From a virus: DNA of 22,342 nt. Both the position numbers and the translations under genes were made by a program. The DNA is taken from IMG/VR virus record IMGVR_UViG_3300042893_001275, positions 1-22,342 of that record. The stretch is one strand, 5' to 3'. This document shows, piece after piece, positions 1 through 20,867 of this stretch (position 1 is its first letter; the number at the start of each line of letters is the position of its first letter). The notes under the pieces are model-generated. The model searched no databases. It was given only the letters and a program-made list of their open reading frames with translations, and was not told where the DNA came from.

Positions 1-42
1 AAACAATATAAAATGATTAATAATAGATTAGTTTCTGATAAC

Positions 43-105
43 TTTATGCAGTTTTTATGCATCTTTTATGCATTTTATGCACGTTTTATGCATGAATTTT
101 ATGCA
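43..105 (+). repeat. Six iteron-like TTTATGCA repeats
   Basis: TTTATGCA occurs at 43-50, 54-61, 65-72, 74-81, 85-92 and 98-105. Five of the six extend to TTTTATGCA. Start-to-start distances are 11, 11, 9, 11 and 13 bp, so most copies fall on about the same face of the helix. This is typical of iterons or of an array of binding sites for an initiator or repressor. The protein that would bind is not identified in this window. Confidence 0.8.
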
Positions 106-120
106 CATATTCAGAGCTTT

Positions 121-217
121 GTCAAGGTATTTTCTATAACATATTACGAATCAGATAGAAAAGTCACTGGAATATAGGGGATATAGAGCAGTCAAGGGTA
201 TATTTATAACATTACGA
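121..217 (+). repeat. Imperfect direct repeat, promoter-like
   Basis: GTCAAGG..TATAACAT..TTACGA occurs twice, at 121-149 and 191-217, about 70 bp apart. The first copy can be read as a weak promoter: TTGTCA (119-124), a 17-nt spacer, and TATTAC (142-147). The second copy has a poorer -35 element. These could be two promoters of the rightward operon, origin-linked transcription, or binding sites for the same protein. Confidence 0.4.
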
Positions 218-305
218 TTACGATTGCACACACCCGATTACACATATAATATGCAAATATTATGCAAGATTATGTATAAAATATCTTATAGGTTCTTTAT
301 GATAG

Positions 306-349
306 TTATCCACAGCTTATCCACATACTTTATCCACAGGTTATCCACA
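306..349 (+). promoter_or_regulatory. Cluster of four perfect DnaA boxes
   Basis: TTATCCACA, the exact consensus DnaA box, occurs at 306-314, 317-325, 330-338 and 341-349. All four copies have the same orientation, and their starts are 11, 13 and 11 bp apart. Four 9-bp matches in 44 bp cannot be chance in this AT-rich DNA. Host DnaA is the likely ligand. The site may start phage replication or titrate or recruit host DnaA. Confidence 0.88.
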
Positions 350-550
350 TATTGTGTATATCTTTTGATATGCTTGCAATATGTTTTGGACGGAAAAGAA
401 CTCTAGACAATCAGAGAATTATCTGATATCATTATCAAGTGAGGAAATATGTCTTAGTTCTTGTTATATGGTTATCTATATCCTTATTGACTATATATCT
501 ATCAAGGGTTACTTTTCCTCCTACCGCCGAAAAATCAGAATGGAATCTAA

Positions 551-766
551 GTGCAATCAAATAGTGTTATACCACTTGTAAAGCAAGCTATGCTTGATCA
601 TGAAGTTGAGGTTGGTCCATTTCTTGATGATAAAGATTATGAACAATGGTTTGTTAAGTACTACCTACATTTCTCATCAATTATTTCTAATCACCCCACA
701 TCATCTAAGAAAAAGTCTAGGTCTATGTGGTCTCCAGAAAATCTACCGAAATGGACATCTAAATAA
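551..766 (+). CDS. Small hypothetical protein
   Basis: This frame encodes 71 residues from a GTG start, with an in-frame TAA immediately before it. An ATG at 590 would give a 58-residue form starting MLDHEVEVG and is a plausible alternative. No strong ribosome site precedes either start. The C-terminal half is basic and has a short Pro/Trp-rich end (SPENLPKW). Its stop codon overlaps the ATG of the next gene (TAATG), so it probably heads the rightward operon. A possible promoter is TTGACT (487-492) with a weak -10 near 510. I do not recognise the family. Confidence 0.55.
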   Translation: MQSNSVIPLVKQAMLDHEVEVGPFLDDKDYEQWFVKYYLHFSSIISNHPTSSKKKSRSMWSPENLPKWTSK

Positions 767-900
767 TGTGTGCTAACTGTGATACAAATATTGTAAATGA
801 AGTAATGATAGCATTGGATCCAATCTTTGAGGAGTTTGGAAAGCAAGAAGTTTTAGATATTATCCACGACTACTACCATAATCGCCATAGGGAGAGCTAA
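766..900 (+). CDS. 44-residue acidic micropeptide
   Basis: An ATG overlapping the previous stop (TAATG) opens a frame of 44 residues, MCANCDTN...HRES. It has one CxxC pair at residues 2-5, an acidic helical middle (EEFGKQEVLDIIHDYY) and a His/Arg-rich end. Its stop TAA overlaps the next ATG in the same way. The tight coupling on both sides is the main evidence that it is real. Function is unknown; one CxxC pair could bind metal only as a dimer. Confidence 0.6.
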   Translation: MCANCDTNIVNEVMIALDPIFEEFGKQEVLDIIHDYYHNRHRES

Positions 901-1076
901 TGAACATCAAAGAATTTATGAATATTGTTATGGTTTCTATGCCTGGAATTGAAGAGAATATGGGTAGGGAACTAACTGTAACCGAAAAGCGTTTTATCAT
1001 TAAAGGTGCTATCGATAAGTGGAATACTGAAAATCCAGATAATTGGCTTGTTATTCCTGCCGAGTTTTTGAAGTAG
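900..1076 (+). CDS. 58-residue hypothetical protein
   Basis: The start overlaps the previous stop (TAATG), and GGGAGAG lies just upstream as a good ribosome site. The 58-residue product (MNIKEFMNIV...IPAEFLK) is mixed alpha/beta in character, with a Trp-rich C-terminal half (KWNTENPDNWLVIP). It has no signal peptide and no membrane segment. It is the third of a chain of coupled small genes leading to the proteasome-like gene. I do not recognise the family. Confidence 0.65.
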   Translation: MNIKEFMNIVMVSMPGIEENMGRELTVTEKRFIIKGAIDKWNTENPDNWLVIPAEFLK

Positions 1077-1082
1077 GAACAT

Positions 1083-1214
1083 ATGGACATTATTGTATTT
1101 GTTTGCTTTCTTATCTTTGTCGCAGCCCTGCTTGTTATACCCATTATGGTGTTTGGCGTTTTACTATCTGCTATCTATGTATCATTTAAGGCAAGAGGGA
1201 GTATGAAACAATGA
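1083..1214 (+). CDS. Single-span membrane micropeptide
   Basis: This frame encodes 43 residues, preceded by AGGA four bases before the ATG. A hydrophobic stretch of about 30 residues (from DIIVFVCFL to LLSAIYVSF) is followed by a basic tail, KARGSMKQ. One membrane span with the basic end inside is expected. The stop TGA overlaps the next start in an ATGA junction, which couples it to the proteasome-like gene. Function is unknown. Confidence 0.65.
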   Translation: MDIIVFVCFLIFVAALLVIPIMVFGVLLSAIYVSFKARGSMKQ

Positions 1215-1729
1215 CTTGTATTGTAGCCATCACAGATGGCGATAATGTCTATATGGCAGCAGAACGTGGATTATCAGATGATGATGTTATTACTGCAATG
1301 AGTGTTGCTAAGATACGTCAAAATGATAGGTATCTTATTGGATACGCCGATTCTCCAGGAACAGGGCAATTACTTCATTGGATTGCTCTGCCTACACCGC
1401 CACGAACTAATATAGATAAGTTTATGCGTACTACTTGGGTAACTGCGGTGCGTAAAGCATTAAACGATTCTGGGGTAGATCTAAAAGATAATGCTCATGC
1501 ATCATTTCTTGTTGGGGTATCTGGAAAGTTATTCTTTGTAGATACTGTAGATTGGCAAGTATCAGAGTGTGAGTATATGTCTATTGGATCAGGTTCATCT
1601 ATTGCTCTTGGTTCTTTATACACCACCGCTTCTTGGAAATCTCCAGAGAAACGAGCCTACACAGCAGTTTCTGCTGCTATCGAGCTCTCACCATCTTGTA
1701 AAGGTCCAATAGATAGTTTATATATTTAG
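1211..1729 (+). CDS. Proteasome beta / HslV-like Ntn hydrolase
   Basis: This 172-residue protein starts MTCIVAI, so removal of Met would expose Thr2 as an N-terminal nucleophile. Lys34 (SVAKI) lies 32 residues after Thr2, matching Lys33 of proteasome beta subunits and HslV. Glu18 (AAERG) falls where those proteins have Asp17. IGSGSSIALGSL (about residues 127-138) matches the conserved GSG..A.G element, and the C-terminal region also fits the fold. Its length is that of HslV (about 175), with no propeptide. Phage relatives of this family are known, usually with unproven function. The gene is coupled to the membrane micropeptide upstream (ATGA) and has GGGAG 9 bases before its start. No HslU or proteasomal ATPase is in the window. 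The fold is fairly certain; protease activity is not. Confidence 0.8.
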   Translation: MTCIVAITDGDNVYMAAERGLSDDDVITAMSVAKIRQNDRYLIGYADSPGTGQLLHWIALPTPPRTNIDKFMRTTWVTAVRKALNDSGVDLKDNAHASFLVGVSGKLFFVDTVDWQVSECEYMSIGSGSSIALGSLYTTASWKSPEKRAYTAVSAAIELSPSCKGPIDSLYI

Positions 1730-3245: not shown

Positions 3246-5075
3246 TTATCTCACCCTCCCAACCATACTAGCTGTCGTTAAAACCTGTGCAGCGATTACG
3301 GCTGCTATAACGACCTTCTGAGACTCTTTTCTGGTAGTATCTGTCATATCCTCACCGATGTTTGCAACGGCTGTGAGAGCCTTTCCTGGGTCTGTAAACA
3401 CTGCTCCAAGGATCTCTGAAGGGTTTGAAAATATTTCTAGAGCATCTGCAACTACAGCAAGCAAAATAACCCCATTTTCTAAGGATACTGGCTGATCTTC
3501 AGGAAGGTCCTCAAAATCTAAGCCTAATTCATCAATCATTTCTGAACTAATTGCTTCTCCATCTGCTTGTGCAACAAGGACATCTGCAAGCAATTCTTTA
3601 TCGTCTTGTGTTAATACTCCGTCAGATGTTAGGGAGTCTGACAAGTTTGTTAATTCTTCATTTGAGATATCACCGTCAGATAATAGGTCTCCAATGATTT
3701 CCTGTGTGTCAGCATCTGAGATAGTGCCGTCAGACACAGCATCTTCTACCGCAGCATCTATGATATCATTATTAGATGGAAGATCAGTGGTTTCAGGAGT
3801 TGGATCGGGAACTGGACTCTCTTCTGGACTTGGAGTTGGCTCTGATGGAGCTGAAGGCTCTGGCTCAGGAGATTGGGTCGGACTTGGAGCAGGTTCTGGA
3901 GCCACTGATTCGGATTCTGAAGGAGTTGGAGTAGGTGAAGGTTCTAAGGGCGGTTCAGAAGTTTCTGACGGCTGTGGGCTTGGTTCTGATGGCTGCGGTG
4001 ACGGTTCTACTGTTGGCGTTTGTGATTCTGACGGCTGTGGTTCAGGGCTGGGCGTAGGGGTTGGCTCTATTGGGCATAACTCATTCCAAGCAATAACAGA
4101 CTCATCCCAACAAATAATATTTGGTGGTGTTGGAGGACACTGTTCGTTCCAATTAACTTCTGAGCTATCCCAACACTCAACTGGTGGTGGCATTTGTGGG
4201 CATAACTCATTCCAGCTAATTACTTCTCCGTTCCAACAAACAATATCTGGAGGAGTTGGTGGACAGGCTTGGTCGTAAGGAATTACCGAACCGTCCCAAC
4301 AAGTTATTGGTGGTGGCTGAACTGGACAAGTTTGACTCCAAGTTATCCACGATCCATCCCAACATTGTGTATCTGGAGGTATTGGGGGACAGGTCCCATT
4401 CCAAGGAATAGTTGATCCATCCCAACATTGTCCTGGAGGTGGTTCTGGGGGACAAGCTGAACTAAGGGGAATAATAGAACCATCCCAACAGGTTTGCATT
4501 TCTACTGGAACGCCACCATTAATTGAGAAAGCTTCCGATATTGTAACTACCTCTTCTCCAGGAGCAAACCTAATTCCTCTTCTAAGATCTGTTGGAAGCC
4601 ATCCAGTTGTTTCAATAACTCCAGACCAAGATGGAAGCTTTGAAGTATCAACAGTTAGTTTAATAATTGTAAGATTTCCAGTGCTTTGGGGAAATGGTCT
4701 TACTCTCCACTCAACACAAAATCCTGTATCTGTAGCACCATAACTTAGACTAGCACCTTGACCAAATGTTACCCAGTCATATCCTGCTAAAGAAATAGAT
4801 GGGGTTTGTGGGTATGAACTAAAGTTAGCATCTGGAGTTCCAAAGGTAAGTGTTCCGTTTGTAGTTACATAAGTTGTATTGTATGTTGTATTTCCAAGAG
4901 TTAAAGGGTTTGTTAAAAGCATTTCGTGAGCAGTATCATCTTCACCAGACCAAGAGTATGTGTTGCAAGGCTGTTCAGCAATCACCGCACTGGCTGGTGG
5001 CATTGGTGAAAGTGTTGCTAGTGCTAACAATGAAATAATTGGGCTTAATAGTAGGTAGGAAAGAATTTTCTTCAA
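3246..5075 (-). CDS. Large secreted repeat protein with membrane-anchor-like C-terminus
   Basis: The product is 609 residues from a TTG start with AAGGAG 11 nt upstream; there is no ATG nearby. A Sec signal peptide (MKKILSYLLL...PASA) is followed by a beta-rich domain (about 40-190) in which YVTTNGTLTFG resembles nidogen-like domains. Seven 21-residue repeats of CWDGSxIxWNxxCPPxPP fill residues 196-342. A Pro/Ser/Glu linker of about 95 residues follows, then acidic helical repeats containing SDGTISDAD, SDGDISNEE and SDGVLTQDD, which resemble calcium-binding or dockerin-like loops. A hydrophobic C-terminal segment (KVVIAAVIAAQVLTTASMVGRVR) could anchor it. It has its own promoter and precedes two holin-like genes. 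A role at the cell surface, in adhesion, exclusion or lysis, is inference. Confidence 0.7.
   Translation of the reverse strand: MKKILSYLLLSPIISLLALATLSPMPPASAVIAEQPCNTYSWSGEDDTAHEMLLTNPLTLGNTTYNTTYVTTNGTLTFGTPDANFSSYPQTPSISLAGYDWVTFGQGASLSYGATDTGFCVEWRVRPFPQSTGNLTIIKLTVDTSKLPSWSGVIETTGWLPTDLRRGIRFAPGEEVVTISEAFSINGGVPVEMQTCWDGSIIPLSSACPPEPPPGQCWDGSTIPWNGTCPPIPPDTQCWDGSWITWSQTCPVQPPPITCWDGSVIPYDQACPPTPPDIVCWNGEVISWNELCPQMPPPVECWDSSEVNWNEQCPPTPPNIICWDESVIAWNELCPIEPTPTPSPEPQPSESQTPTVEPSPQPSEPSPQPSETSEPPLEPSPTPTPSESESVAPEPAPSPTQSPEPEPSAPSEPTPSPEESPVPDPTPETTDLPSNNDIIDAAVEDAVSDGTISDADTQEIIGDLLSDGDISNEELTNLSDSLTSDGVLTQDDKELLADVLVAQADGEAISSEMIDELGLDFEDLPEDQPVSLENGVILLAVVADALEIFSNPSEILGAVFTDPGKALTAVANIGEDMTDTTRKESQKVVIAAVIAAQVLTTASMVGRVR
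4050..4490 (-). repeat. Seven 63-bp coding repeats (CWDGS repeat)
   Basis: Seven units of 21 codons run without interruption, each starting at a Cys-Trp pair (first Cys codon at 4490, last unit starting at 4112). Each unit has two cysteines 12 residues apart and ends in a Pro-rich CPPxPP segment. The copies differ clearly in sequence, so the array is old or under selection, not a recent slippage product. The 3' flank becomes the Pro/Ser/Glu linker. Confidence 0.85.
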
Positions 5076-5655: not shown

Positions 5656-6375
5656 TAGATACTGGTCAGATGCCATCCTGTCATTAATATACTTTATATT
5701 ATCTAGGGCAATCCCTATATCAGCATCTGGAAGTGTATGTAAAAAATGACGAATAATCATAGTCATTTCTTTTTTTGCTACCGTGTGATCATAAGAACTT
5801 CCTTGTGGGTGGTGTACAAAATATTCATCATCTCTTAAAGCTAATTTATTATTTATCTTAGCAATAGTACACCATACATAATCAACACCCCAACCCGATT
5901 TCATTGAGTATAAATCTAAAGAATTAGAAAGGCTATTCATAAAGTTTTGCATCTTTATTGCTAACTCTCTTTTCATAAAGAAGAATATACCTTCTGTCTG
6001 ACAAGATATATATGAGTTGTTAGAGTAATCTTCTATAAAACAAACATTCTTTGTCCAAGGCTCATTTGATAAGTGTGGTGAGTAAAGCCAAACATTATCA
6101 TCAGATAGTAATAGTTGTGCTTTGTTATAGATATCTGAGAAATGATCTGAGCTTATATCTCCAGTAATAAAGCAAAAGGTTTCATCTTGTGTATTGTTTA
6201 TAAAGTGATCTATAGCATATTTGAATTGATTGTAATACCATATTAGTCCAAGATTATGCCAACCGTCTTTTTCTGGGGCATCTGAATTAATTACTTCATA
6301 GTTATCTATTTGATTGGTTATATCATCTAAGCCAGATACAACATTATTCCAAGTTACTATGTATGTCTTAATCAT
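5653..6375 (-). CDS. Putative GT-A-like glycosyltransferase
   Basis: The product is 240 residues. It starts with a beta strand (TYIVTWN) and has FCFITGDISSD near residue 70, a possible metal-binding DxD-type loop. A conserved block GWGVDYVW, then HHPQGSSYDH, lies towards the end, where such enzymes carry acceptor and metal ligands. The whole suggests a GT-A fold, but the family cannot be named. It overlaps the nucleotidyltransferase gene (ATGA) and follows a GT-B enzyme, so the three probably build or attach one glycan. Confidence 0.55.
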   Translation of the reverse strand: MIKTYIVTWNNVVSGLDDITNQIDNYEVINSDAPEKDGWHNLGLIWYYNQFKYAIDHFINNTQDETFCFITGDISSDHFSDIYNKAQLLLSDDNVWLYSPHLSNEPWTKNVCFIEDYSNNSYISCQTEGIFFFMKRELAIKMQNFMNSLSNSLDLYSMKSGWGVDYVWCTIAKINNKLALRDDEYFVHHPQGSSYDHTVAKKEMTMIIRHFLHTLPDADIGIALDNIKYINDRMASDQYL

Positions 6376-6797
6376 TTAATTCTATTTTTTATTTGACTAG
6401 AAGAGATATCTTTAGAATATGGTATGTATATCAAGCCTATGTTTCTTTCATCTAACCATTCTTGGGTAAAGTTCATTTGGGAATAATAGTCTTTCTTTGC
6501 CCAATCCGATCCAATAACAATATAGTCTGGATTTACTAATTCAATAGCTACCTTTGAGTCTGTACCGCCCACATTAAATACTACACCATCAACATACCTG
6601 CAAGACATTAAGACAGCCCTTCTTTCTGTATCACTACATACGGCTGGCTTTCCTTTATATTTTTTAATAAACTCATTTTGATTCAGGGATACAATTACTT
6701 TACCGTTTGATCCAGCAATATCCTTACATCTTTTTAATAGATTAACGTGACCAGAATGGAATAGGTCAAATGTTCCACCTGTGTATACGATAGACAT
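6372..6797 (-). CDS. TagD/RfaE-like cytidylyl- or adenylyltransferase
   Basis: The product is 141 residues, the usual length for glycerol-3-phosphate cytidylyltransferase (TagD) and its relatives. The N-terminal GGTFDLFHSGHVNLL contains the HxGH nucleotide-binding motif (His14, His17). RxxxL in ERRAVLMSCRYVD, the VIGSDW block and the C-terminal ISSSQIKNRI complete the family pattern. Such enzymes make CDP-glycerol, CDP-ribitol or ADP-heptose from the sugar phosphate and NTP. The substrate cannot be told from sequence alone. It lies between two glycosyltransferase-like genes with TAATG and ATGA overlaps, so it probably supplies their activated donor. Confidence 0.82.
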   Translation of the reverse strand: MSIVYTGGTFDLFHSGHVNLLKRCKDIAGSNGKVIVSLNQNEFIKKYKGKPAVCSDTERRAVLMSCRYVDGVVFNVGGTDSKVAIELVNPDYIVIGSDWAKKDYYSQMNFTQEWLDERNIGLIYIPYSKDISSSQIKNRIK

Positions 6798-7912
6798 TAC
6801 TTGCCAGCCAAATATTTTCTAAATGGTTCTAGTGTAGACTTCCACAAAAGTTTTTCATGTCCATATCTATAAACAGTGGGAAGCTTTTCTTCTATAAAAT
6901 TAAAACAAGCCTCTTTAAAACTATCTATATCGTCTTCAACAATAGTATTTCTAGAGCCAATAAAATCATCAAACTCTCTAAAGGACTTAGTTGTTCCAAC
7001 AATAGGACGACCAGAACATATAGCCTCTGCTGTCTTTAAGTTACTACCGCCACCATATGGAATAGGAAGAAGAATTACGCTGGCAGATAAAATAAGTTTA
7101 TTTAGTTCCTCATCTGATCTTACCCCTAATAAAACAACTTCTGTGTTTTTAACTAAATCTATTTCTCTTCCAACTTTTCCACGAAGATCATCACACATAC
7201 TGCCAACATAAATTAGTCTTGAGTTTTCTGGCATCCATTCTGTTGCATCATAAAGGTATTTAATAGAACCTTCTATATTTGGTGGGTGTCCAGAACCAAT
7301 AACTAAAGCATACTTGTTAGTAGAAAAAACTCTTTGTGGAGTTGTTAGTGTTCCATTATTTGCATCAATAACATTCTTTGCACCATTATTTTGAAACCAA
7401 AGTTTATCTAATTCTGTGACACATAATATTAAATCACATTCTTTAGCAATTTCTTCTTCAATGCTTCTAACATATTTGACTGCATCTATTTTAGCATTTT
7501 GGTCAAGCCCTTTTAATAATTCAGACTTTGTTAAAAACTCAATGTTGTGGCTTGAATGTATTAGTTTTGTCTTTGGAAAAATTTCTTTTAGTTTTTTTGC
7601 TTCGGTCCATAACCAAGGATGATCAAAAATTATAGCATCTGGAACATTATTAAGATGGTCTTCTGTGTGAAAATCTTTAAACAACATTAAGATATCTGAT
7701 AGTTGTGGGTGATCATGCTTTGCCCATTCTGGAGTATCTGAATTAAGTTCAGCTATTAGTTGGTCAACGTGTAAGACTTCTGATCTTGGATATATTTCTT
7801 TGATTACATTAAATATTTGCTCTGATCTAATAGGACCACCCCATTTTGCATCTGGAGGAAATGGTGATAGGTGTAATATACAAGCATCTTGTGGTAAATT
7901 AAACTGTTCCAT
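6797..7912 (-). CDS. GT-B (family 4-like) glycosyltransferase
   Basis: The product is 371 residues, the normal length for a GT4-type enzyme. The N-terminal Rossmann half begins CILHLSPFPPDAKWGGP, typical of the acceptor domain. The donor half contains ALVIGSGHPPN and LIYVGS, then PIPYGGGSNLKTAEAICSGRPIVG (GGGSNLKTAEA at residues 287-297), the signature of nucleotide-sugar binding with the E-x7-E-like helix. It is coupled by TAATG to the small gene upstream and to the nucleotidyltransferase downstream. It acts in the cytoplasm and transfers a sugar to an unknown acceptor: virion protein, cell-wall polymer or lipid. Confidence 0.8.
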   Translation of the reverse strand: MEQFNLPQDACILHLSPFPPDAKWGGPIRSEQIFNVIKEIYPRSEVLHVDQLIAELNSDTPEWAKHDHPQLSDILMLFKDFHTEDHLNNVPDAIIFDHPWLWTEAKKLKEIFPKTKLIHSSHNIEFLTKSELLKGLDQNAKIDAVKYVRSIEEEIAKECDLILCVTELDKLWFQNNGAKNVIDANNGTLTTPQRVFSTNKYALVIGSGHPPNIEGSIKYLYDATEWMPENSRLIYVGSMCDDLRGKVGREIDLVKNTEVVLLGVRSDEELNKLILSASVILLPIPYGGGSNLKTAEAICSGRPIVGTTKSFREFDDFIGSRNTIVEDDIDSFKEACFNFIEEKLPTVYRYGHEKLLWKSTLEPFRKYLAGK

Positions 7913-8094
7913 TAATATTCCATAATTTCATGCTCAATCCCTAAATCATCTAGTGGAATAAAATCTTCATTCATAACAACTTCATCGTAGTGGATACCGT
8001 CTAAAGTAAACTGAACACGAGATGAATGAGCACCAAAAGAAACTAATTCGGCAGTTACATGCTCTTCAATCATCCAAACTAAACGATAAAACAT
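7912..8094 (-). CDS. 60-residue hypothetical protein
   Basis: This is a compact acidic protein (MFYRLVWMIEEHVTAELV...IEHEIMEY) with a beta-rich pattern, FTLDGIHYDEVVMNEDF in the middle and an acidic end. It has no Cys and no membrane segment. Both ends overlap neighbours by TAATG, so it is translated with the gene upstream and the glycosyltransferase downstream. I do not recognise the family. Confidence 0.65.
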   Translation of the reverse strand: MFYRLVWMIEEHVTAELVSFGAHSSRVQFTLDGIHYDEVVMNEDFIPLDDLGIEHEIMEY

Positions 8095-8351
8095 TACCCA
8101 ATACTCCTTGGTGGATCGCCTTTAGCACCATCAAAATGAAATGGTACTCCAAATGCTTCTACAATACCACGAAGCTGATGAAGGTATTCAAGCACACTTA
8201 CTTGTTGACCATCACTCATTGCCATCACTTCGTTTTCATATGTTCTTGCTGCAAGGTAATCTGGAAACTCTACAAAATCTACTGTAAGCTTTGAGTATGG
8301 TTTTTTTACAGACTTCATTGCTGCTAAAATTTCTGGAGTAAACCTAGCCAC
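8094..8351 (-). CDS. 85-residue hypothetical protein
   Basis: The GTG start at 8351 overlaps the last codons of whiB (GTGGCTAG), which supports it. The product (MARFTPEILAAMKSVKKPYSK...GDPPRSIG) is mixed alpha/beta, with a central helix (YLAARTYENEVMAMSD) and a second helix (VLEYLHQLRGIVEAFGV). There are no cysteines and no membrane segment. It is coupled to its downstream neighbour by TAATG. Function is unknown. Confidence 0.65.
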   Translation of the reverse strand: MARFTPEILAAMKSVKKPYSKLTVDFVEFPDYLAARTYENEVMAMSDGQQVSVLEYLHQLRGIVEAFGVPFHFDGAKGDPPRSIG

Positions 8352-8640
8352 TTATAGCCTCCAGAACCCTTTGCCATATCTCTTTTGATTTGTGTGCATT
8401 TCTTGCTTGACTGATTTCACCATCAACAAGGTAGACTCCACCCCAAACACCCCACTCTTCATTGGTTGTTCCTTGGTTAAAACATTCTTTAATTACGGGA
8501 CAACGTAAACAAACATTCTCATCAATAGCTTTAGCAAGGTCTTCATCTTCTTCATACTTATCAAAGAACATTTCCTTGTCCATAGCCCTGCATTGGGCTT
8601 TTAAAACCCACTCATCCTCTAGCATAACGCTTTGGAACAT
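8344..8640 (-). CDS. WhiB-family iron-sulfur transcription factor
   Basis: The product is 98 residues from the ATG at 8640, which has AAGGAT just upstream. An open frame continues to 8724 but would run deep into the preceding gene. Four cysteines, Cys17, Cys44, Cys47 and Cys53 (C-x26-C-x2-C-x5-C), bind the [4Fe-4S] cluster of this family, and EEWGVWGG (residues 61-68) is the conserved beta-turn. WhiB proteins occur only in actinobacteria and their phages, where they bind the main sigma factor and change host transcription. This is the best evidence for the host phylum. It overlaps genes on both sides and sits upstream of the glycosylation genes, which it might control. Confidence 0.92.
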   Translation of the reverse strand: MFQSVMLEDEWVLKAQCRAMDKEMFFDKYEEDEDLAKAIDENVCLRCPVIKECFNQGTTNEEWGVWGGVYLVDGEISQARNAHKSKEIWQRVLEAISG

Positions 8641-8824
8641 CCCATCCTTGTTCGGTAATTGGAAAAACATTTGTAGTTCCCCATTTAAGATTTTTAAATA
8701 CACCAGTTGGCATAAAGTATGCATCTGGGTTTGGCTTAAACTCTACAATATTCCAACCATCCCAAGATAGGGAATGATTGTTGTCTACTAACCTATGTGC
8801 ATAGGCATAGTTTGTAACTAACAT
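8612..8824 (-). CDS. 70-residue hypothetical protein upstream of whiB
   Basis: The ATG at 8824 has AAAGGAT 5 nt upstream. The product is rich in aromatic residues (SLSWDGWNIVEFKPNP, FKNLKWGTTNVFPITEQGWDVPKRY) and looks like a small beta-rich domain. I recall similar proteins next to WhiB genes in actinophages, but cannot confirm this. Its end overlaps the start of whiB by 29 nt, a longer overlap than at the other junctions. No function can be assigned. Confidence 0.65.
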   Translation of the reverse strand: MLVTNYAYAHRLVDNNHSLSWDGWNIVEFKPNPDAYFMPTGVFKNLKWGTTNVFPITEQGWDVPKRYARG

Positions 8825-8833
8825 TTTTATCCT

Positions 8834-9199
8834 TTAGTATTTGTAGTAAGATGACTTTATCTTACTATTTTCTGCCTTGTCTAACAGTACGTCAAACAAT
8901 CTTTGGTCTTCTTTAGAGTTAAATGATAGCACATGATCAAACTCATATGTATCAAAGCTCTCAACTACCTGTGCTTTTCTAACACGGTTAAATCTAGCCT
9001 TAATACCATTTTGCTTAAACATAGTCTCGCTACGGTTAATAAACTCTGCTACAAAGTTATTGATTTTATGTGGACCTGCGGTGTAAACATCTAGTCTACC
9101 GTCACTATTGTTCATATTTTCTTCAATAGCAACCACCATACCACGCATAAAGGTAGGGTAGTCCTCAAACTTATCTGTACCATACACTAAAATCTTCAC
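8834..9199 (-). CDS. Hypothetical protein, possible SLOG/Rossmann fold
   Basis: The product is 121 residues. The start MKILVYGTDKFEDYPTFMRGM and the following helix, then DVYTAGPHKINNFVAEFINR, resemble the order of elements in the DUF2493/SLOG group (strand, G-x-x-x-F-D, helix, strand, G-x-x-x, helix). The match is weak and key glycines differ. The C-terminal 40 residues are charged. Its ATG overlaps the stop of the subtilase gene (ATGA), so the two are made together; a short 9-nt gap leads to the next gene. Confidence 0.6.
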   Translation of the reverse strand: MKILVYGTDKFEDYPTFMRGMVVAIEENMNNSDGRLDVYTAGPHKINNFVAEFINRSETMFKQNGIKARFNRVRKAQVVESFDTYEFDHVLSFNSKEDQRLFDVLLDKAENSKIKSSYYKY

Positions 9200-10071
9200 T
9201 GGCTAACCACCAATACATTCTTAACCTTTGCGGTACTGACAACTTTTGCCAGAGATTTAATTCTATCATATTTTTGCTGAAAAGACAACGACTTATCTAG
9301 CTTATACCAGTTGGATGAAAACAGTGCTGTAGCGTTTGAGGTACCAACAGACCTAGACTTTGTTGTTGGACTAATGTATGTGTTCATAGTTCCAAGTGCA
9401 TAGAAGTCATCAGATAGGTTACTGTAGAGTGCAGGAAACTGACCCTTAGAACCTGCAGGATCGGTTGCACCAATAGTAATTACATCTTTAACACATGCAG
9501 GAAAACTTGCACGACTATGATCAGAATCATTCCCACTACCTGCAATAACTGGAACACCAAGACTTTTTAGGATAGCTACATTCGATTCAATAGCCTTGTT
9601 AGTCATACAAGTAGAAGTATTACGAATAGCCAGGCTAATAGAAACTTGAGAGATGTTATACTTTTGCTTGTTTGCTACAACCCATTTAATAGATTCTTCT
9701 AAAACACTTACATTAGATGCTGCTCTTGTTCCATCTGGGTTCATTCCAATTACACGAATCATAATTACATTTGCATTAGAGTTTTCTACAATAACACCAG
9801 CCATCGCTGTTCCGTGATAGAAAGCATTCCTTTGTGCCCTTACTGGATCAAGGGTTGCACTTCCCTTACCCTCCATAAAGTTTTTACCATTAGGGCAGGT
9901 ACTTTGTACAAGAATACATACCTCTTCTACTACTCTATTAGAAACAATCTTATTAGTCATATCAACTCCCGTATCTACAACAACGATTGTTGGGGGTGTT
10001 GTTGAGCGAGCAGCACCTGATAGTCCAAGTAAAATGCCAATAGCAAGACAAGCAATTAAATATTTTTTCAT
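9196..10071 (-). CDS. Secreted subtilisin-like serine protease (S8)
   Basis: The product is 291 residues. A signal peptide (about residues 1-22, MKKYLIACLAIGILLGLSGA) is followed almost at once by the catalytic core: Asp33 in VVDTGVD, His86 in YHGTAMAGV, the oxyanion Asn181 in IAGSGND, and Ser245 in VGTSNATA. The triad is complete, so the enzyme should be active. Only about ten residues separate the signal peptide from the Asp block, so no I9 inhibitor propeptide is present. No C-terminal anchor is seen. It would act outside the cell or in the wall. It has a consensus promoter and an AAAGGA ribosome site 5 nt before the ATG. Secreted proteases are unusual in phages; targets could be host surface proteins or the other secreted phage proteins. 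Confidence 0.88.
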   Translation of the reverse strand: MKKYLIACLAIGILLGLSGAARSTTPPTIVVVDTGVDMTNKIVSNRVVEEVCILVQSTCPNGKNFMEGKGSATLDPVRAQRNAFYHGTAMAGVIVENSNANVIMIRVIGMNPDGTRAASNVSVLEESIKWVVANKQKYNISQVSISLAIRNTSTCMTNKAIESNVAILKSLGVPVIAGSGNDSDHSRASFPACVKDVITIGATDPAGSKGQFPALYSNLSDDFYALGTMNTYISPTTKSRSVGTSNATALFSSNWYKLDKSLSFQQKYDRIKSLAKVVSTAKVKNVLVVSQ

Positions 10072-10098
10072 AACATTCCTTTAAGTTTGGTTTGATTA

Positions 10099-10127
10099 AT
10101 TATCCCATATTGTATAGAAAATGTCAA
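10099..10127 (-). promoter_or_regulatory. Sigma-70-type promoter of the subtilase operon
   Basis: TTGACA (10122-10127), a 17-nt spacer and GATAAT (10099-10104), read on the minus strand. The transcript would carry a leader of about 20 nt including AAAGGA before the subtilase ATG at 10071. Confidence 0.78.
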
Positions 10128-10130
10128 GGT

Positions 10131-10670
10131 CTATCCAATAGCAGTATTATATTCTTTTTCCCAGTTAAAATCACCAAAACCACTGTATGTTTCAAAGCGT
10201 CTTAAAGCAATGATTGAGTCAATTATGCCGTCCGTATAGTCTGATGATTTCTTTTTACCTGCGTAAACATCCTCAACAGCAAGAGCTAAGAGGTCATAGA
10301 GTGGGCGGTATACAGCATTAAAGTTAAAGATAGAGTTAATAAAATCTGGACTTAGATCCGTATTGATTCCACAGGCATCTAGCTGATCAATTACATACTT
10401 GGATATATCTTTAAGCTCTGCATCATTCCAAGTTGTTACAGCAACCTTAAAGCAAGAATATACAACCAATACCTTTATCTGTTCTTCTGTTAACTCTGTT
10501 ACCTCATGAATATATGGAGCAAAATTAATTTTATCAATTAGTTTATTTTCTTCAGTTGCTCTTTTAACTATTAGGTCTCCATACTTTTGAATGTTATCTG
10601 GAAAGCATCCGCTTTCTTCATGATGATGATGGTCTGGACCTAATCCACTTTCATAGTTGTGCTCATGCAT
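10131..10670 (-). CDS. His-rich hypothetical protein
   Basis: The product is 179 residues starting MHEHNYESGLGPDHHHHEESG. The ATG at 10670 overlaps the upstream stop (TAATG) and is preferred to a GTG three codons earlier. The N-terminal 20 residues contain six histidines and could bind metal. The rest is mainly helical (LIVKRATEENKLIDKINF, EEQIKVLVVYSCFKVAV, PLYDLLALAVEDVYAG) and soluble. It follows the gene at 10670-11392 and ends just before the subtilase promoter. I do not recognise the family. Confidence 0.65.
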   Translation of the reverse strand: MHEHNYESGLGPDHHHHEESGCFPDNIQKYGDLIVKRATEENKLIDKINFAPYIHEVTELTEEQIKVLVVYSCFKVAVTTWNDAELKDISKYVIDQLDACGINTDLSPDFINSIFNFNAVYRPLYDLLALAVEDVYAGKKKSSDYTDGIIDSIIALRRFETYSGFGDFNWEKEYNTAIG

Positions 10671-11392
10671 TACTTCCACTCTTTCTTTTGTCTAAAAAAT
10701 GTTTTATATCTATTTGATCCTTTTCTTTCTGCTTTTTTCCATAACTTATGTAAGTTAATATCATGATCTGAAACTATTTCATGTGACCAACTATCACGCT
10801 TGAAAGGAATAATTTGCATAATAGGTGTACCCATAGGAAGCATACCTTCAAAATCTTTTCTAATAAAAAATGGAAAGTTGACATTGATCGGATGAGTATC
10901 TGTATCAACTATTGCTGGTAAAACATAAAATGGTAAATCATCTCTGAATGTTGGTTGAATAAACAAACAAGAGTATCCAGGCGGTGTTTGAGTAATCCAA
11001 GGATTAATAAACTTTAAACCTATTTGTTCATACTCATCTGGAATACTATACGAATCATATTGTGGCTGTGGGTGGCTTTGAATCATACCCAAATCATTTG
11101 TACTCCACAAGGTATTTACATTTCCGTTTTCACCTTTTGAAAAAATAACATCTGCTGGTAAGGTATAAATATATCCAGCAGTCATCACATCAAAGACTGG
11201 CATACATCCTTTAATGGTATGATTTATTGTTCCATTTTCTTGGCTGTAGCTCTTTGTTCCGCCAACATATTTATTCTGATTCTTATACCATTCTGGTATT
11301 AGTTTACTGGCAGGAACTGGTGGGTCATAAATATTTGTGTCTGTACCTATAGCAGGAATAAACTTAATTACTTTTTCTTTTTTTCTAAACAT
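10670..11392 (-). CDS. DUF6065-like phage protein
   Basis: The product is 240 residues. Its landmarks are IPAIGTD near the start, PPVPASKLIPEWYKN, a CMPVFD block, INPWITQTPPGYSCLFIQP in the middle, and FPFFIRKDFEGMLPMGTPIMQIIPFKRDSW. The PPGYS...P and MGTPIxQxIPFKRxxW elements recall DUF6065, a family seen in tailed phages near tail genes; I cannot confirm this by search. A role in tail or fibre assembly would fit the position directly after the three collar genes. No active site can be proposed. The last 35 residues are very basic. Confidence 0.6.
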   Translation of the reverse strand: MFRKKEKVIKFIPAIGTDTNIYDPPVPASKLIPEWYKNQNKYVGGTKSYSQENGTINHTIKGCMPVFDVMTAGYIYTLPADVIFSKGENGNVNTLWSTNDLGMIQSHPQPQYDSYSIPDEYEQIGLKFINPWITQTPPGYSCLFIQPTFRDDLPFYVLPAIVDTDTHPINVNFPFFIRKDFEGMLPMGTPIMQIIPFKRDSWSHEIVSDHDINLHKLWKKAERKGSNRYKTFFRQKKEWK

Positions 11393-11408
11393 TTTATTCT
11401 TTCTGTTA

Positions 11409-12227
11409 TTATGCTTTTATAAAGTATAGCATAGGTGAATATGGAATTGGATATCCAGTTACTGAATTATAACTATTGGTTGTGTCTACTGTTGTTGAGT
11501 GAAGATGGGCATTTGTAAATGCCGTTCCAGTAGAATTATATTGCGTGTTATTCTCTAGTCCTGTTGCTGGTAGAGTGTGGGTATGGTCAGTATATACTGA
11601 AGAATTTGTATTGTATGCATTAAAGTTTTGAACATGAGCGTGTTGCCTTAGACCTGTATTTCCTGTGTTTCCATTTGTTGCACTAGAAGAATCATAGTTC
11701 CAGATATGGGCATTACTATTTCTATTTGCATCTGCATTGATAAGTGTATTAGCATTTGTAGATGGGGTAGCAGATGGTGTTCCATCGTGAGAGTGTCCAG
11801 GTGGATTTCCTGTAGCAAAAACTCTATTACCATCATAAGCATTATGAGAGTGTGTCATTACGGTATTGTTATTTGTACTATTCCAAGTTACCGTTCCAAT
11901 GTCGTGAATATGATTTGTTGTGTTAGTAATTGTGCCAACCACACCAGTATTTGAAGCACCTTTAACAGAAAGCTTTGTATTGTGTAAGTTTGGAACATTA
12001 AAATTTAGTCCCGATCCACCATATGTATATCCAATTACGGTATGTAGGTCTAGATATGTTGCAACAAGATGAGAAGTTCCATCACACTTTAATAAGCCTA
12101 AGGAAGCAAGATCGGAATCTGAAAGCGTTGAGTATGGTCCAGCAAGTGTCAAGATTGCACCTGTTGGAATGTATGCAAAGTTTGTTTGTGAATCTAATAG
12201 GTCTGATTCAAATGTTGTATATGGCAT
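11409..12227 (-). CDS. Tail-collar fibre protein A with six HxH motifs
   Basis: The product is 272 residues. Residues 15-80 form a phage tail collar domain: IPTGAILTLAGP, LLKCDG, YLDLHTVIGYTYGGSGLNFNVPNL. The rest is Asn/Thr/Gly-rich and carries six HxH motifs (HIH, HSH, HSH, HAH, HTH, HLH), ending in PYSPMLYFIKA. In T4 gp37, a trimeric fibre tip with repeated HxH motifs binds a row of iron ions along a needle; the same layout here suggests a metal-knitted trimeric needle. It is the third of three tandem related genes downstream of the long fibre. A distal fibre tip or receptor-binding role is inferred. Confidence 0.78.
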   Translation of the reverse strand: MPYTTFESDLLDSQTNFAYIPTGAILTLAGPYSTLSDSDLASLGLLKCDGTSHLVATYLDLHTVIGYTYGGSGLNFNVPNLHNTKLSVKGASNTGVVGTITNTTNHIHDIGTVTWNSTNNNTVMTHSHNAYDGNRVFATGNPPGHSHDGTPSATPSTNANTLINADANRNSNAHIWNYDSSSATNGNTGNTGLRQHAHVQNFNAYNTNSSVYTDHTHTLPATGLENNTQYNSTGTAFTNAHLHSTTVDTTNSYNSVTGYPIPYSPMLYFIKA

Positions 12228-12231
12228 AGTG

Positions 12232-13047
12232 TTAATACTTTATAATAAAGTATACCTCCTTACTTAATGGTATTTGGGTTGCAGTAGCTGTATTTATTCC
12301 TTGAACAGTTACACCATCTACAGTAATAGATCCATGATTTACTGTATGTGTATGAGAAATATTATCTGCAGAATGAACCTGTACAGCATGTAAGTGACCA
12401 AAAGCATCAGTTCCTGCTGGTATACCAGTTTGTGCTCTAAAAGCAATAGTGGTATTTGAGGCACCCCCGTGATCATGAACGGGAACATTATGATACTGGG
12501 TAGTGTTAGTTGCAGAAGATTGTCTAGAAGTTGCTGCGGTATTTACTGTTGAGTTATTTAAAACATTAGCACCTGCTATTGCACTATGAGTATGAAGTAT
12601 GTTTGCATTATTAGAGCTAACATTCATAGTTGCATGATTGTGATTTGCAGAGTAATTGCTAGTAGTAAAATTAGTAGCATTAGCTTTATAGGAAGCATGT
12701 GAGTGAGCAAAATTTGCTGGGTATGATGGCTCAGATGAGGATCTGCTTACTGCAAACCTTCCTGTTGGATTGTGTGTTGCATTGACAACAAGTGGTGGAA
12801 GATTAAATGTCGTTGAGACACCAGACTGATCAGTTGTTCCAAGAGAATATGCCGTACCGCCATAAGTATTTGTAATAGTTTTATGTAGTTCCTGATAAGT
12901 AAAAGTATTCACTGGTGATCCGTCACAAAGTAGCCATCCATCTGGAACAGTAGATGACATAATAATAACAACAGATCCAACTGGGTATGACTGAGCATAT
13001 CCCCTTTTATCAACAATGTAATCTTCTGATATTTTAAAGTCTACCAT
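12232..13047 (-). CDS. Tail-collar fibre protein B with six HxH motifs
   Basis: The product is 271 residues, nearly the length of its downstream neighbour. The collar domain is clearer here: YPVGSVVIIMSSTVPDGWLLCDGS, YQELHKTITNTYGG, TTFNLPPL. The C-terminal part carries six HxH motifs (HSH, HNH, HTH, HDH, HLH, HTH) in Ala/Asn/Thr-rich sequence and ends in IPLSKEVYFIIKY. The similar C-termini (MLYFIKA, VYFIIKY, MNYIVKL) point to triplication. The gap to the next gene is 4 nt. It may differ from its neighbours in receptor choice. Confidence 0.8.
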   Translation of the reverse strand: MVDFKISEDYIVDKRGYAQSYPVGSVVIIMSSTVPDGWLLCDGSPVNTFTYQELHKTITNTYGGTAYSLGTTDQSGVSTTFNLPPLVVNATHNPTGRFAVSRSSSEPSYPANFAHSHASYKANATNFTTSNYSANHNHATMNVSSNNANILHTHSAIAGANVLNNSTVNTAATSRQSSATNTTQYHNVPVHDHGGASNTTIAFRAQTGIPAGTDAFGHLHAVQVHSADNISHTHTVNHGSITVDGVTVQGINTATATQIPLSKEVYFIIKY

Positions 13048-13057
13048 GCCAACACAC

Positions 13058-13708
13058 CTACAACTTCACTATGTAGTTCATAGAAATGCTACCTGCTTGA
13101 GTTGTTTCTGAGGGGGTTGTACCAGATGGTGAAACCTGAGTATTATGTGCATGTGCTGTTTCTGAAACAGTGTGATTTATTGTTCCAAGAGTTGATGAGT
13201 TTGGATGAGAATGACCTGCTGGGGCAACAACTGCAACATTGGTTATGTATGTTGAAACGTGGTCATGGCTTCTAAAAGTTCTAGTTGTATTAGACCCATT
13301 GGACCAATTAATAAAGCTTGATGCTGAATGAGATGCGGTATCTACTGCAATGCCGATTTGATGAGTATGATTTGTTTCAGCTATGCTAGTTTGTAAGTTT
13401 GTATAATATCCAGGTGCGTCATGAGTGTTTGCAACTGCAGTATATGTTAAAGAACCAAATGCATAGTTATGCGTATGGGTATTTGATCCAGTCACCCCAC
13501 CAAGATTAGATGAAGAGTTTGCACCTACTAAAAAATATCCCCTTAAGTCAGGTGTTCCACCTGTACCGTCACACAATGCCCAACCAGAAGGTGCGGTAGT
13601 ACCAGCAAATGGCATAATAAATCCAGTTTGTGGAATAATATTTACTCCTGCTAAGGCAGTTCCTAAAGATGTTTTATCTGCACTTTCTTTTAATTTAAGA
13701 TTAGCCAT
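13058..13708 (-). CDS. Tail-collar fibre protein C with five HxH motifs
   Basis: The product is 216 residues, the shortest of the three. The collar domain is FIMPFAGTTAPSGWALCDGTGGTPDLRGYFLVGANSSSNLGG, lacking the YGG loop of the others. Five HxH motifs follow (HTH, HTH, HDH, HSH, HAH), and the end is SISMNYIVKL. Its ATG overlaps the stop of the long fibre gene (TAATG), and GGAG lies a few bases upstream. This junction suggests a fixed ratio of long fibre to tip protein. Confidence 0.8.
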   Translation of the reverse strand: MANLKLKESADKTSLGTALAGVNIIPQTGFIMPFAGTTAPSGWALCDGTGGTPDLRGYFLVGANSSSNLGGVTGSNTHTHNYAFGSLTYTAVANTHDAPGYYTNLQTSIAETNHTHQIGIAVDTASHSASSFINWSNGSNTTRTFRSHDHVSTYITNVAVVAPAGHSHPNSSTLGTINHTVSETAHAHNTQVSPSGTTPSETTQAGSISMNYIVKL

Positions 13709-20602: not shown

Positions 20603-20614
20603 TTTAATCCTTTG

Positions 20615-20867
20615 TGGAGATGGGCGGAATTGCACCGCCGTCCTTTATGTTTTCAATTATACACTTACACAGCAATATTGTCAAGATATTTCTTACATTT
20701 TCTTACATACACGACTTTCTGTTCCTATCTAGTCGTCAGACGGCTTTTAACTATGCAGCTAAAGCGAAGGCAGTTTGTGTTTTGCCGTTTATATTTATTT
20801 AGTTTTACAAGTAACTCTCTTGTGCTGGTGTATAAGTTTCCACATAAAGTCGAAACTAGTCATCCCC
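20615..20867 (-). ncRNA. tmRNA (ssrA), compact
   Basis: The 5' end GGGGATGACTAGTTTCGAC and the 3' end GGCGGTGCAATTCCGCC-CATCTCC-A are those of a tmRNA. The acceptor stem GGGGATG/CATCTCC (one G-U pair) and a T-arm GGCGG-TGCAATT-CCGCC fold well. Helix P2 pairs CTTTATGT with ACATAAAG and TTATACAC with GTGTATAA. The tag frame starts at GGC 20786 and ends at TAG 20751-20753: GKTQTAFALAA. The CCA is not encoded. At 253 nt it is about 100 nt shorter than most bacterial tmRNAs, so one or more pseudoknots after the tag must be missing or reduced. It would rescue stalled ribosomes with host SmpB. Confidence 0.9.
20656..20684 (-). promoter_or_regulatory. Consensus promoter inside the tmRNA gene
   Basis: TTGACA (20679-20684), 17 nt, TATAAT (20656-20661), read on the minus strand, matches the sigma-70 consensus exactly. 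Part of the -10 also forms helix P2 of the tmRNA. It would start transcription near 20649 and feed the membrane-protein gene at 20602. Confidence 0.6.

Follow-up and report, generated by a model that had tools for sequence, protein, structure and literature searches.

A candidate replication origin with host-type DnaA boxes and a second repeat array in a group of actinophage-like genomes

The origins of P1 (oriR) and of F-type plasmids combine iterons of about 19-22 bp with tandem DnaA boxes, AT-rich DNA and an adjacent rep gene. Vibrio cholerae ori2 brings together an AT-rich element, one DnaA box and six 12-mers arranged head to tail at 10-11 bp (PMC6090056). How does the locus described here compare? 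The window, by which we mean the whole of a linear 22.3-kb IMG/VR virus fragment (22,342 nt; IMGVR_UViG_3300042893_001275), carries near its first base a cluster of putative TTATCCACA DnaA boxes and a second array of TTTATGCA units (Table 1). As in ori2, six short head-to-tail iterons, an AT-rich candidate unwinding element and DnaA boxes share one region. Replication from ori2, the origin of chromosome 2, depends on RctB and rctB adjoins it, whereas no initiator gene was recognised at the window locus; moreover, the window units lack GATC, and four DnaA boxes stand against one in ori2. An iteron array, tandem DnaA boxes and AT-rich sequence in a replicon of phage or plasmid type also mark P1 oriR and the F-type origins, but the window units are only 8 bp long and we found no rep gene. 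In bacterial oriC, too, exact TTATCCACA boxes, some of them in tandem at 11 bp, adjoin DNA that melts easily; the window locus differs in having no adjoining dnaA or dnaN and in possessing the TTTATGCA array. We propose that this region is a phage replication origin that uses host DnaA together with a second factor, and we put the probability of this reading at roughly one half.

By themselves, arrays of DnaA boxes are nothing unusual in viruses. The sequence-only reading from which this study started held that few tailed phages carry perfect arrays, and this is too strong: T5-like (SP15) and Lactococcus (WRP3) phages, as well as microviruses, have comparable TTATCCACA clusters outside annotated genes. 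We saw no relatedness of these phages to the window genome, and the likeness concerns the DnaA boxes. A four-box TTATCCACA array occurs in 35 IMG/VR contigs, with no ORF of at least 80 aa spanning it in 32 of the 35. One phage whose four boxes repeat the 11-13-11 spacing exactly (L003/G009) was considered as a relative and rejected as unrelated. In the single-stranded DNA phage Microvirus mar39 (L038, 1842-1883), four TTATCCACA copies at exact 11-bp spacing occupy a gap beside the replication initiator gene.

To what kind of virus does the window belong? It encodes a WhiB protein, an HslV-like hydrolase, a subtilisin-like protease, a tmRNA and tRNAs, and WhiB serves as an actinophage marker (PMC6802176, PMC10202952). 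Judged by sequence, the window is a piece of an actinophage-like genome of about 95-106 kb, from a virus family whose genomes are of that size and whose hosts are probably freshwater Actinobacteria. A second WhiB, used for host identification, gave distant Actinobacteria matches only. The tmRNA gene (20612-20867, minus strand) specifies the tag GKTQTAFALAA and is accompanied in the window by genes for tRNA-Thr, -Arg, -Met and -Tyr. On the same strand, 3246-5075 encodes a 609-aa protein of secreted type, in which CWDGS motifs recur and a long stretch is rich in Pro, Ser and Glu; it had no Pfam match.

Relatives, designated here by G and L numbers, were gathered by HslV and capsid protein searches and include contigs of 71-107 kb. 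Two of these, G011 (105,797 bp) and G014 (94,728 bp), have end repeats of 55 and 99 bp, respectively, which suggests circular assembly; the strongest protein matches of G011 have about 50-65% aa identity. In the relatives, a short early block, about 10-20 kb of small genes, opposes a long structural and replication block. The HslV-like gene of the window is among the last plus-strand genes before the gene directions meet at about 1.93-1.95 kb. Among the products of G006 are a DnaE-type polymerase, DnaB-like helicase, primase, SSB, UvsX, RuvC-like resolvase and terminase. The replisome genes lie about 40 kb from the array locus. A search of eight relatives for a phage-encoded DnaA found no DnaA AAA+ domain. 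Nor did we recognise a gene for an initiator that would act at the TTTATGCA array. The flanking 43-aa and 41-aa ORFs and most of the early ORFs tested had no PHROG match, and an initiator of unfamiliar type may still be encoded beside the array.

Table 1. Features of the array locus and adjoining genes (positions in the window)
Feature	Positions	Strand	Remarks
Upstream 43-aa ORF, 3' end	1-11	+	stop codon 9-11, read in L039; complete in L039, L041, L042, L043
Six head-to-tail TTTATGCA units	43-105	+	starts 43, 54, 65, 74, 85, 98; spacings 11, 11, 9, 11, 13
ATTACGAA-N-TCAC element	143-170	+	repeated, strand-biased in early block of relatives
AT-rich, conserved, low-stability block between arrays, candidate unwinding element	201-305		lone TTATGCA at 260
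Four putative TTATCCACA DnaA boxes	306-349	+	starts 306, 317, 330, 341; spacings 11, 13, 11
Sigma70-like promoter TAGACA-17-TATCAT, extended -10	404-432	+	canonical TTGACA-17-TATCAT in L046, L048
41-aa GTG-start ORF, hydrophobic N-terminus, membrane-type	439-564	+	counterparts in L041, L042, L046, L048
Three small early-type ORFs (551-766, 766-900, 900-1076)	551-1076	+	kept in relatives
HslV/proteasome-like Ntn-hydrolase	1211-1729	+	PHROG 1040, E=2e-19

Both arrays exceed chance. Among 1000 dinucleotide-preserving shuffles of the window, the densest cluster of TTATCCACA was one per 150 bp against the four observed, that of TTATGCA three per 70 bp against six, and none of the 1000 reached the observed clusters. 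No other exact copies of the TTATCCACA cluster boxes or of the TTTATGCA units exist in the 22.3-kb window. The sixth TTTATGCA unit reads TTATGCACA and is compatible with the DnaA consensus TTATNCACA, which has TTATNCA in common with TTATGCA. The sequence-only reading had placed the boxes and units exactly. Its spacing of near 11 bp is right, though intervals of 9 and 13 bp preclude strict phasing, and the 550 bp that it described as free of genes shrink to a non-coding stretch from 12 to 438, bounded by the stop codon of the upstream ORF and the start of the 41-aa ORF. The ATTACGAA-N-TCAC element, present in 11 copies in G004 and eight in G006, is strand-biased and often lies right before small ORFs.

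Are the arrays conserved, as was to be checked? The TTTATGCA array is, and two of the DnaA boxes, while the other two are not. When five close relatives are aligned, the window counted among them, the TTTATGCA array is the best-conserved part of the region, with 86% invariant columns against 28% in the adjoining spacer; the figures are 75% for DnaA boxes 1-2, none for boxes 3-4, 68-83% for the AT-rich block and 66% for the promoter. The 11-11-9-11-13 spacing of the TTTATGCA units is identical in the window, L039, L041 and L042; two of the units in L043 carry single-base changes. More broadly, G006, G023 and G011 have 4-5 copies and G005 three exact copies. The DnaA boxes differ even among close relatives: two are altered to TTATACACA in L039, and L041 and L042 retain two. 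G011 has a DnaA-box pair about 150 bp from its TTTATGCA array, and G006 has no DnaA box beside its own. Scanning IMG/VR for three adjacent TTTATGCA units returned 11 contigs, five of this group (G011 included) and six unrelated; no DnaA boxes were found near the arrays of the latter.

Do the boxes resemble those of the likely host type? For this comparison we examined the surroundings of dnaA in thirteen Actinomycetes genomes of 1.2-1.5 Mb, leaving out a class-wide genome sample with many genomes of 0.6-1.1 Mb, apparently from another class. The thirteen are small and most have 43-48% GC, which suggests Nanopelagicales-like bacteria; two, at 54-60% GC, probably belong elsewhere. Beside dnaA, TTATCCACA prevails, with 48 of the 68 box-like sites in a count that includes some sequences twice, and in two closed genomes a pair of copies stands in 11-bp tandem between dnaA and dnaN. 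The window boxes match this dnaA-adjacent box, and small-genome Actinomycetes are the likely host type. No TTATGCA or TTTATGCA array was found beside dnaA in any of the thirteen, and we rejected the view that the array is a copied host origin.

The DNA next to several of the clusters is of low duplex stability. In the window, the 100-bp segments from 200 and 235 have a stability below that of 98-99% of the fragment, and within this 22.3-kb fragment the segments at 403, 236 and 3 rank 4, 8 and 14. Rankings of 100-bp segments across entire contigs again place the least stable ones beside DnaA-box clusters, at rank 1 in G001, 1-2 in G016, 2 and 4 in G015, and 3, 5, 7 and 8 in G012. Low duplex stability beside the clusters would fit an unwinding element, and supports one short of proof, but it is partly expected because intergenic DNA is generally rich in AT. 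Inversion of GC skew is typical of bacterial oriC, though not strictly defining. The inversion proposed as a check is absent at the array: the skew of the window changes sign near 1.9 kb, about 1.6 kb away, where gene directions converge. Skew tracks gene direction in every relative, and fourfold-degenerate (synonymous) sites show no replichore step. Since all genes in one block share a direction, skew neither supports nor excludes an origin and is a weak test in phages.

The clusters keep to particular places on the map. One kind of DnaA-box site lies where the early block ends (window, G001, G003, G004, G011, G012, G015 and G016) and another near its divergent start, beside early promoters (G006, G011, G023, G025 and possibly G014). 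DnaA-box and TTTATGCA clusters are both missing from G017 (106.6 kb) and G018 (88.6 kb), and a search for alternative box types in these two found no clusters either. The contig of G013 ends within hslV. The early block also harbours an extended -10-like motif, TGTCAGACC-N3-TG(A/C)TA, which eight of the ten genomes checked carry 3-10 times, always on the early-block strand (spanning 24543-30372 in G004, 90077-95723 in G006, 26061-34199 in G017 and 5731-13107 in G012); none was found in G016, in G018 or in the reversed control. We regard it as a candidate phage early promoter.

Might the locus instead control transcription? Host DnaA bound at 306-349 and, at the TTTATGCA array, a regulator made by the phage would then tune the promoter at 404-432 for the small early genes and hslV. 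This promoter lies about 55 bp downstream of the last DnaA box, and DnaA-box pairs stand upstream of several early promoters, at 89.7, 91.1 and 91.9 kb in G006, at 27.0 and 28.5 kb in G011, and in G023 and G016. In G011 and G015, however, the cluster that closes the early block sits between convergent genes, so that it is no upstream promoter element there and has no promoter to serve, which argues against a pure promoter role. Moreover, the cluster stays at the end of the block although hslV is absent (G015) or lies about 10 kb away (G016). As the explanation of the locus, transcription control seems unlikely to us, if worth keeping in mind.

We give still less credence to titration, in which replicating phage genomes would absorb host DnaA and slow initiation on the host chromosome. 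Total TTATCCACA counts above chance in G012 (13 versus 1.1 expected), G006 (8 versus 1.6) and G016 (9 versus 1.1) would suit such a sponge, as would the variable number and orientation of the boxes, but no genome-wide excess was found in G001 or G017, and the better conserved TTTATGCA array, the fixed map position and the adjoining low-stability DNA are left unexplained. Another DNA transaction, such as packaging (pac) or partition with the DnaA boxes incidental, is very improbable: the left end of the window and the contig ends of several relatives (G001, G005, G006 and G023) do lie within 1.3 kb of the array, but they do so at differing distances (42, 275, 316, 832 and 1238 bp), which assembly breaks in a variable region fit better than a fixed cut, the terminase gene of G006 is about 30 kb away, and the boxes exactly match the host-type DnaA box. 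Because bacterial DnaA both initiates replication and regulates, the origin, promoter-control and titration readings are compatible with one another.

How, then, would an origin at this locus work? Host DnaA would bind the TTATCCACA cluster, and the adjoining low-stability DNA would aid duplex opening by DnaA. The opened duplex would be taken up by the helicase, primase and polymerase that the phage itself encodes. The TTTATGCA array, phased at 11 bp, may be a second binding array, occupied by a phage protein or by DnaA at low affinity; the latter is conceivable because TTATGCA shares TTATNCA with TTATNCACA. An origin best explains the conserved array, the map position, the unstable DNA and the host-type boxes together. 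It is supported by clusters that exceed chance, conserved arrays at a fixed position, replisome genes of the phage's own and the lack of a DnaA gene among the relatives searched. Against it stand the missing skew inversion, the two genomes devoid of clusters, the variation of the DnaA boxes among close relatives, the failure to find an initiator gene for the second array and the distance to the replisome genes; in addition, a single dedicated origin leaves the extra DnaA-box pairs beside early promoters unexplained. The description of the region as origin-like is supported by its arrays, both DnaA-box and iteron-like, by its low stability, its host-type box and the lack of a DnaA in the eight relatives searched, and finds no support in its skew.

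Among large lytic phages that encode a replisome themselves, the choice of start site is understood in few models. We tentatively suggest, as a possibility somewhat short of even odds, that these uncultured, widespread actinophages, with a replisome of their own and no recognisable initiator, start from a hybrid origin at which host DnaA occupies host-type boxes and a phage factor the TTTATGCA array. To our knowledge, no such hybrid origin has been described for phages of this size that carry their own replisome. If true, it would provide a sequence-defined origin in an abundant environmental phage group and would tie phage replication to the cell-cycle state of the host. Since the boxes match the host type, the locus could then also be used for host prediction.
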